Origin: Haloprofundus salilacus
GTDB taxonomy: Archaea; Halobacteriota; Halobacteria; Halobacteriales; Haloferacaceae
Assembly (NCBI RefSeq): GCF_020150815.1
Contig: NZ_CP083723.1
Span: 2,356,001-2,420,000 of the forward strand
Length of the DNA: 64,000 nt
Direction: 5' to 3'
In this document: positions 1,248 through 3,610 of the stretch, piece by piece
How the letters are laid out: every line of letters starts with the position of its first letter
Numbering within the stretch: the stretch's first letter is position 1
Notes under the pieces: model-generated
Seen by the model: the letters and a program-made list of their open reading frames with translations, nothing else
The model's database searches: none
Told to the model about the DNA's origin: nothing
Made by a program: the position numbers and the translations under genes

Positions 1248-1311
1248 ACCCGAGTTCCGAACGCTCGAATCGGATGAGAGCTTTCACTGCTCAATTTGTT
1301 CGCAGGAAAAG

Positions 1312-1385
1312 TCCGCTCTCCCCGATTTGAACGGGGGGCAAGCCGATCTACAGTCGGCTGCTCTGCCAGGCTGAGCTAAGAGCGG
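1312..1385 (-). tRNA. tRNA-Tyr (GUA)
   Basis: On the minus strand the sequence folds as a complete cloverleaf. Acceptor CCGCTCT pairs with AGAGCGG, and the D-arm stem is GCTC/GAGC. The anticodon stem GCCGA/TCGGC encloses the loop CTGTAGA with anticodon GTA. The T-arm CCCCG/CGGGG has loop TTCAAAT. The discriminator is A at 1312, and no CCA is encoded. I see no intron. Confidence 0.95.
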
Positions 1386-2056: not shown

Positions 2057-2220
2057 GTCTTACAGTCGCCGTTACATTTATATCCTATCGCTCTGTGCTT
2101 ACGTTCGCGTAAGACGGTCGTCTTACGTCCCGGAGTCAGCGAGGGGCAAGTCGCCCCTTTCGTGCGGTTCCGGGGCGTAAGACGGAGTCGGGCGTGTGCC
2201 CGACCGTCTTACCGGGGGAA
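2057..2220 (+). promoter_or_regulatory. cdrS-ftsZ2 promoter and leader with five GTCTTAC/GTAAGAC copies
   Basis: A TATA-like ATTTATAT lies at about 2076-2083. GTCTTAC or its complement GTAAGAC occurs five times, at 2057, 2109, 2120, 2177 and 2206. Two of these form a perfect 20-base palindrome at 2108-2127 (nine-base arms, GT centre), where transcription should begin. A second dyad at 2177-2212 has 15 paired bases, a two-base bulge and a GTGT loop, and ends 15 bases before the cdrS ATG. A small hairpin AGGGGC/GCCCCT lies at 2142-2158 between them. The dyads could be operators, an RNA leader structure, or both. Confidence 0.75.
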
Positions 2221-2419: not shown

Positions 2420-3610
2420 ATGCAAGATATCGTACAAGACGCACTCGAAAACGCCGAGGCCGAGCAGCGTGACATGGAGGCGCAATCCGACGACGACGAT
2501 TTCGGAGAACCCCGCATCGTCATCGTCGGCTGCGGTGGTGCTGGCAACAACACCATCAACCGCCTCTACAACATCGGAGTCGAGGGCGCCGACACCGTCG
2601 CTATCAACACTGACAAACAACACCTGAAGATGATCGAGGCCGACACGAAGATCCTCGTCGGCAAGTCGCTGACGCAGGGATTGGGGGCCGGCGGCGACCC
2701 CTCGATGGGCGAGCGAGCTACTGAGATGGCGCAGGGAACCATCAAAGAGGTCCTCGGCAACGCCGACCTCGTGTTCGTCACCGCGGGGATGGGCGGCGGC
2801 ACCGGTACCGGTGCGGCACCCGTCGTCGCGAAGATCGCCAAAGAACAGGGCGCCATCGTCGTTGGCATGGTCTCGACGCCGTTCAACGTCGAGCGCGCCC
2901 GCACGGTGAAAGCCGAGGAGGGACTGGAGAAACTCCGCAACGAGGCGGACTCCATCATCGTCCTCGACAACAACCGCCTGCTCGACTACGTCCCGAACCT
3001 CCCGATTGGGAAGGCGTTCTCGGTGATGGACCAGATCATCGCCGAGACGGTGAAGGGTATCTCGGAGACCATCACCCAGCCGTCGCTCATCAACCTCGAC
3101 TACGCTGACATGTCGACAATCATGAACCAGGGCGGAGTCGCGGTGATGCTCGTCGGGGAGACGCAGGACAAAAACAAGACGGAAGAGGTGGTTCGCGACG
3201 CGATGAACCACCCGCTTCTCGACGTGGACTACCGCGGGGCGTCCGGCGGGCTCGTCCACATCACCGGCGGCCCGGACCTCACGCTCAAGGAGGCCGAGGG
3301 CATCGCCGACAACATCACCGAACGCCTCGAAGCTAGCGCCAACGTCATCTGGGGCGCGCGCATCCAGGAGGAGTACAAGGGGAAAGTCCGCGTCATGGCC
3401 ATCATGACCGGCGTCCAGAGCGCGCAGGTGCTCGGCCCGACGACCCAGAAGCAGGCCGACCGCTCACGCGCCAGCCTCGACGGGAGCTCGGAGTTCGAGA
3501 CGAGCCAGAACCGCCAGCGCCGGACGAGCGCGAACTCGAACGGCTCGTGGCAGTCCGACGGCGGACGAGACGAGGTCGAACGCAACAACGGCCTCGACGT
3601 TATCCGCTAA
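2420..3610 (+). CDS. ftsZ2: FtsZ2, tubulin-like cell-division GTPase
   Basis: A 396-residue FtsZ. The nucleotide-binding core starts with VGCGGAGNN (about residue 35). The GTPase signature [12 protein letters not shown] lies at about 123-134, followed by the T7-type region NLDYADM. An acidic head of about 30 residues precedes it and a polar tail of about 50 residues follows the core, as in haloarchaeal FtsZ2. FtsZ2 acts at midcell with FtsZ1 and SepF and drives constriction. It is the second gene of the cdrS-ftsZ2 operon, which marks it as FtsZ2 rather than FtsZ1. Confidence 0.96.

Follow-up and report, generated by a model that had tools for sequence, protein, structure and literature searches.

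Repeat copies between cdrL and cdrS

The window, by which we mean the whole 64-kb stretch of DNA analysed, carries on its plus strand the genes cdrL (1502–2017), cdrS (2228–2416) and ftsZ2 (2420–3610). Pfam matches identify a ribbon-helix-helix (RHH) domain, a CdrL middle region and a double zinc ribbon in the product of cdrL, Tubulin and FtsZ_C domains in that of ftsZ2, and an RHH protein of 62 amino acids as the product of cdrS, whose ATG start codon lies at 2228. A tRNA-Tyr gene (anticodon GTA; 1311–1385, minus strand) is located just upstream of cdrL in the opposite orientation. The heptamer GTCTTAC is present five times between cdrL and cdrS, as a sequence-only reading of this DNA had reported, at 2057 (+), 2109 (−), 2120 (+), 2177 (−) and 2206 (+), here numbered copies 0 to 4, and the probability of five copies falling by chance within 156 bp is very low (Poisson P = 2.7e-15). 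Elsewhere in the window there is one further GTCTTAC. Isolated copies are not special, since the count in the whole 3.73 Mb genome (76) is below that of the reversed control (119).

Copy 0 (2057–2063, plus strand) is a putative half-site upstream of the TATA box TTTATA (2077–2082, plus strand) and lies outside the transcript. Copies 1 and 2 form a near-palindrome (2108–2127, plus strand) with 9-base arms, CGTAAGACG and CGTCTTACG. The sequence-only reading had described a perfect 20-base palindrome at this position; copies 1 and 2 do combine into such an element where transcription is likely to start, but the symmetry is 9+2+9, around a central GT that lacks self-complementarity. In aligned leaders, GGGG or AGGGG (CGGGG-type) comes after copy 4 and ahead of the start codon; the corresponding sequence in the window is a Shine-Dalgarno-like GGGGG (2214–2218, plus strand).

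Relatives that share the gene order also conserve the motif. The order of the copies upstream of cdrS is kept across leaders from 80 haloarchaeal loci with named organisms, and a covariance model of the element built from 41 leaders matched 381 of 391 Halobacteria genomes. Haloferacaceae archaeon XH8 contains two cdrS loci in one genome, each with its own operator and leader, one of which has one base fewer in the GGGGG stretch.

The palindrome as a putative CdrL operator

The geometry of the upstream copies is tightly conserved. Of 142 distinct sequences, 111 have the first T of TTTATA 32 bp ahead of copy 1. Given the usual spacing from TATA box to transcription start in haloarchaea, we infer that transcription starts at about copy 1. 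Copy 0, in most of the sequences that carry it, is located at −52 from copy 1 or one base off, and the distance between copies 1 and 2 is 11 bp in 115 and 12 bp in 21 of the 140 leaders. The spacings between copies 0 and 1 and between copies 1 and 2 are therefore near-fixed, whereas those between copies 2 and 3 and between copies 3 and 4 drift. Symmetric half-sites spaced by about one turn of the helix thus coincide with the promoter, an arrangement expected of an RHH operator. Upstream of these copies, between cdrL and copy 0 (about 1959–2053 in the window), we also observed GTATACG (40/142), GTAAACG (28/142) and extra GTAAGAC (29/142) elements, 150 to 56 bp ahead of copy 1, which almost vanish on shuffling and are possibly more half-sites or the site of another factor.

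The palindrome GTAAGAC-N(3-6)-GTCTTAC is present in 51 of 60 relatives, at a single locus in each except one genome (G395) with two, compared with one match for the reversed control. Among genomes sampled across the phylum, 51 of 53 Halobacteria have one such locus; outside this class the palindrome turned up in 3 of 242 genomes, a number that does not exceed the reversed control and is hence at chance level. The palindrome is unique in the source genome, so GTCTTAC was rejected as the mark of a wider regulon; near-matches in this genome include sites of the CdrS type described below, for example ahead of ftsZ1. In Halobacterium salinarum, CdrL has one reproducible ChIP-seq site genome-wide, upstream of cdrS-ftsZ2, and the protein is restricted to Halobacteria (PMC7439475). 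The number of loci and the taxonomic range of the palindrome match those of CdrL, making CdrL the best candidate ligand, as the sequence-only reading had proposed. Both CdrL and CdrS are RHH proteins, again in agreement with that reading, the match of CdrL to RHH_1 (E = 2.3e-5) being above the cut-off. GTAAGAC/GTCTTAC is the likely CdrL half-site, the exact contacts and any cooperative binding of the protein being putative, as the published ChIP-seq locates CdrL at the level of the region.

CdrS, which the sequence-only reading had considered as a second ligand, is a bare RHH protein. Its recognition strand, MERVTLRI, is near-identical to that of CdrL (MSKITFRA, with few exceptions among 142 loci), in line with half-sites that differ by one base. 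The ChIP-seq sites of CdrS in Haloferax volcanii include ftsZ1 and dacZ, and cdrS is absent from them (PMC8406309). We found that ftsZ1 promoters and the dacZ promoters that we located have in common GTCNGAC-like boxes 11 bp apart, and that each of four genomes has three to six matches to GTCNGAC-N4-GTCNGAC (against 0 for the reversed control), with the ftsZ1 promoter among them. A genome search with this CdrS-type motif did not return the cdrS-ftsZ2 leader locus, where the palindrome reads GTAAGAC-N4-GTCTTAC. Based on the published sites and the different target motif, CdrS is probably not the ligand of the cdrS operator. Examples of the CdrS-type motif are found in ftsZ1 and dacZ promoters (loci L203, L195, L187 and L189) and at G000:C1:2111130-2111147, and the matches in the source genome represent a candidate CdrS regulon.

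Folding and covariation of the cdrS-ftsZ2 leader

The leader of the window is predicted to fold at −79 kcal/mol (z = −6.6), and the predicted fold of this RNA of about 120 nt is a three-way junction with arms P1, P2 and P3, all coordinates of which are given for the plus strand. P1 pairs copy 1 with copy 4, its 5′ strand (2109–2116) consisting of copy 1, GTAAGAC, plus a G, and its 3′ strand (2205–2212) including copy 4 (GTCTTAC, 2206–2212). P2 pairs copy 2 with copy 3 over about 20 pairs, with copy 2 (2120–2126) inside the 5′ strand (2118–2137) and copy 3 (GTAAGAC, 2177–2183) inside the 3′ strand (2166–2185), and is extended by an apical stem-loop (2139–2163). P3 is a small hairpin (2187–2204) with the weakest comparative support of the helices. 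In most relatives with all copies, the predicted pairing probabilities of copies 1 with 4 and 2 with 3 are near 1 and that of copies 3 with 4 is near 0. The mean z-score, from 78 leaders, is −2.2 for the interior of P2 and −1.0 for P3. The 3′ strand of P2 also carries a loosely conserved CG(A/G)TT(T/C) in many families (alignment A1; about 2168–2174 in the window), possibly a contact site.

A different RNA element had been proposed in the sequence-only reading, namely a hairpin of copies 3 and 4 over the ribosome site. Such a hairpin can be drawn, with 15 pairs, a 2-nt bulge and a 3′ end 15 nt before the cdrS ATG. When the two folds were forced, however, the junction was the stronger in 106 of 108 leaders, some of them from duplicate genomes, by a median of 8.1 kcal/mol (−71.5 versus −66.2 kcal/mol in the window). 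Neither fold covers GGGGG, which adjoins the junction one base 3′ of P1, and the hairpin too ends one base before it.

Since the near-invariant 7-mers will pair in any case and prove nothing alone, pairing was assessed outside them. Pairs 2–4 inside the helix of copies 2 and 3 form in 59–69% of leaders, against 41–45% expected from base composition, while pairs inside that of copies 3 and 4 do not exceed the expectation. We also carried out a tree-aware scan of all possible 4-bp helices, in which columns were simulated independently along the cdrS-ftsZ2 tree (200 simulations). The extension of copies 2 and 3 ranks top of all such helices and was reached by none of the 200 simulations, and the flank of P1, extending copies 1 and 4, has moderate support (P = 0.015). 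No covariation was detected for the alternative extensions of copies 1 and 2 (P = 0.89) or 3 and 4 (P = 0.98). Covariation beyond phylogeny thus supports P2, through its extension, and P1, through its flank, as expected of a conserved structured RNA, and the hairpin of copies 3 and 4 is not upheld as an RNA element. Individual compensatory changes were also found, from GTAAGACGG/CCGTCTTAC to GTAAGACAG/CTGTCTTAC in loci L068 and L176 and to GTAAGACGA/TCGTCTTAC in L005 and L063. Helix-level and pre-specified tests were chosen because no base pair was significant by itself when all pairs were tested for covariation in 78 leaders. RNAalifold applied to the sequence alignment recovered the outer helices only, as the leader interior is misaligned, and pair counts from a second alignment, A2, were kept out of the main evidence because some 12 of its sequences match this palindromic element on the minus strand. 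In an Rfam search of the leader, the best match (E = 0.33) was far below the gathering thresholds, leaving only chance matches.

Two proposed layers of control in the same repeats

We consider it fairly probable that the repeats serve two layers, as a CdrL operator on DNA and as a three-way-junction leader on RNA. The double lock of the sequence-only reading survives to the extent that a conserved DNA operator is combined with a conserved RNA structure; the RNA is, though, the junction of copies 1 with 4 and 2 with 3, with the ribosome site beside it. Two CdrL RHH dimers would occupy the palindrome of copies 1 and 2 across the transcription start, copy 0 would provide an additional half-site ahead of the promoter, and CdrL would gate transcription initiation at cdrS-ftsZ2 alone. 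Once transcribed, copies 1 and 2 at the 5′ end would pair with copies 4 and 3, giving a junction that would bury the mRNA 5′ end and stop one base short of the ribosome site. The leader junction, if it acts, most likely sets the stability or the ribosome loading of the cdrS-ftsZ2 mRNA, and CdrL may either activate or repress; the sign and size of both effects are putative. In Hbt. salinarum the operon mRNA rises without a proportional rise in ribosome occupancy, a discordance that its authors ascribe to a processing site inside ftsZ2 and not to the leader (PMC8303175); the divergence fits a role for the leader but does not single it out. For Hfx. volcanii, cdrS RNAs of about 250 nt and 1,500 nt have been reported. 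The larger band fits, and the smaller RNA is shorter than the leader (121 nt) and gene (186 nt) together, so the leader may be cut or transcription may start further in.

The two layers can separate, since some lineages hold one while losing parts of the other. In four genomes of the f8/g41 group (L140, L170, L173 and L174) the palindrome and P2 persist after the loss of copy 4 and P3. Three loci (L159, L175 and L176) have no intact copy 2 and retain the pairing of copies 1 and 4, and in three others (L132, L133 and L134) copies 3 and 4 are missing and the palindrome is still present. Changes compatible with G-U pairing account for 14 of 38 in copy 3 and 1 of 26 in copy 0 (Fisher P = 0.002, related sequences being counted separately). 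This tolerance, together with the drifting spacing of copies 3 and 4, agrees with a division of labour among the five copies, and suggests protein binding as the constraint on copies 0, 1 and 2 and, for copies 3 and 4, the need to pair with 2 and 1.

It is unlikely that all five copies are only DNA half-sites of a CdrL array, with the RNA fold a by-product of inverted repeats. Near-invariant 7-mers would indeed pair automatically in RNA, and copy 3 shows a variant, GTATGAC, that is also seen in the DNA-only copy 0. But such an array would not account for covariation outside the 7-mers that is confined to copies 2 with 3 and 1 with 4, for a P2 interior stabler than shuffles, for the excess of G-U-compatible changes in copy 3 or for a spacing of copies 3 and 4 that drifts through the helical repeat. 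Autoregulation of the operon by CdrS, binding GTCTTAC instead of or alongside CdrL, could draw on the near-identical recognition strands and half-sites one base apart; given the absence of cdrS from the published CdrS sites, and several GTCNGAC pairs per genome against a single palindrome, we regard it as unlikely.

The leader could also be bistable, its two pairings (1 with 2 and 3 with 4, or 1 with 4 and 2 with 3) sharing core hairpins and undergoing strand exchange under the influence of a protein, ion or metabolite. Four alternating copies permit both topologies, which in the window are predicted to differ by 5.3 kcal/mol. Predictions for a few leaders come close to balance, and before copy 3 has been transcribed the hairpin of copies 1 and 2 is the stablest predicted fold of the growing RNA. 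Bistability is nonetheless unlikely, as the alternative pairs lack covariation, lineages without copy 3 or 4 cannot adopt both states and the aligned leaders contain no T-run terminator, as a transcription attenuator would require. An extension of this idea, which we view as doubtful, is that the word is read twice, as CdrL operator and as leader strands swapping between tandem hairpins and junction, with CdrL or CdrS, on DNA or nascent RNA, selecting the state; if true, this choice would couple transcription, mRNA stability and translation of ftsZ2.

The control of cell division in archaea is poorly understood, and the preferred reading, CdrL operator plus junction leader, proposes an exact operator for a regulator with one known target. 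Post-transcriptional regulation of the operon was already suspected, and the reading now also includes a structured leader on its mRNA, present class-wide. As the proposed half-sites of CdrL and CdrS differ by one base, their specificity is directly testable, and, if the dual use holds, the repeats would clearly exemplify constraints on DNA and on RNA within one set of bases. A literature search on CdrS, CdrL and HVO_0582 within the library searched returned no description of the motif or the leader, and ftsZ goes unmentioned in the text of the Hfx. volcanii start-site paper; the three-armed leader structure seems to be new to description.

Operators of the Arc/CopG family of RHH repressors consist of short symmetric half-sites that overlap the promoter and are spaced by roughly one helical turn. 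The palindrome resembles them in this layout and differs in that its half-sites, putative with respect to binding, double as RNA helix strands. Like riboswitches, attenuators and ribosomal-protein leaders, the cdrS-ftsZ2 leader is a conserved folded 5′ leader ending at the ribosome site, although here it belongs to an archaeal cell-division operon and has no Rfam match or terminator, nor a recognised ligand pocket, no conserved unpaired core being apparent in the leader alignment. The motif bound by the RHH protein CdrS in Hfx. volcanii (PMC8406309), which for this comparison we re-derived from the ftsZ1 and dacZ promoters, likewise has two boxes 11 bp apart, but these are GTCNGAC rather than GTAAGAC, occur at several sites per genome and are not found at the cdrS promoter. 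A further close parallel is the CdrL ChIP-seq site of Hbt. salinarum (PMC7439475), which shares the intergenic region, the single-target behaviour and the taxonomic range; that study reported neither a binding motif nor a leader structure, both of which are proposed here.
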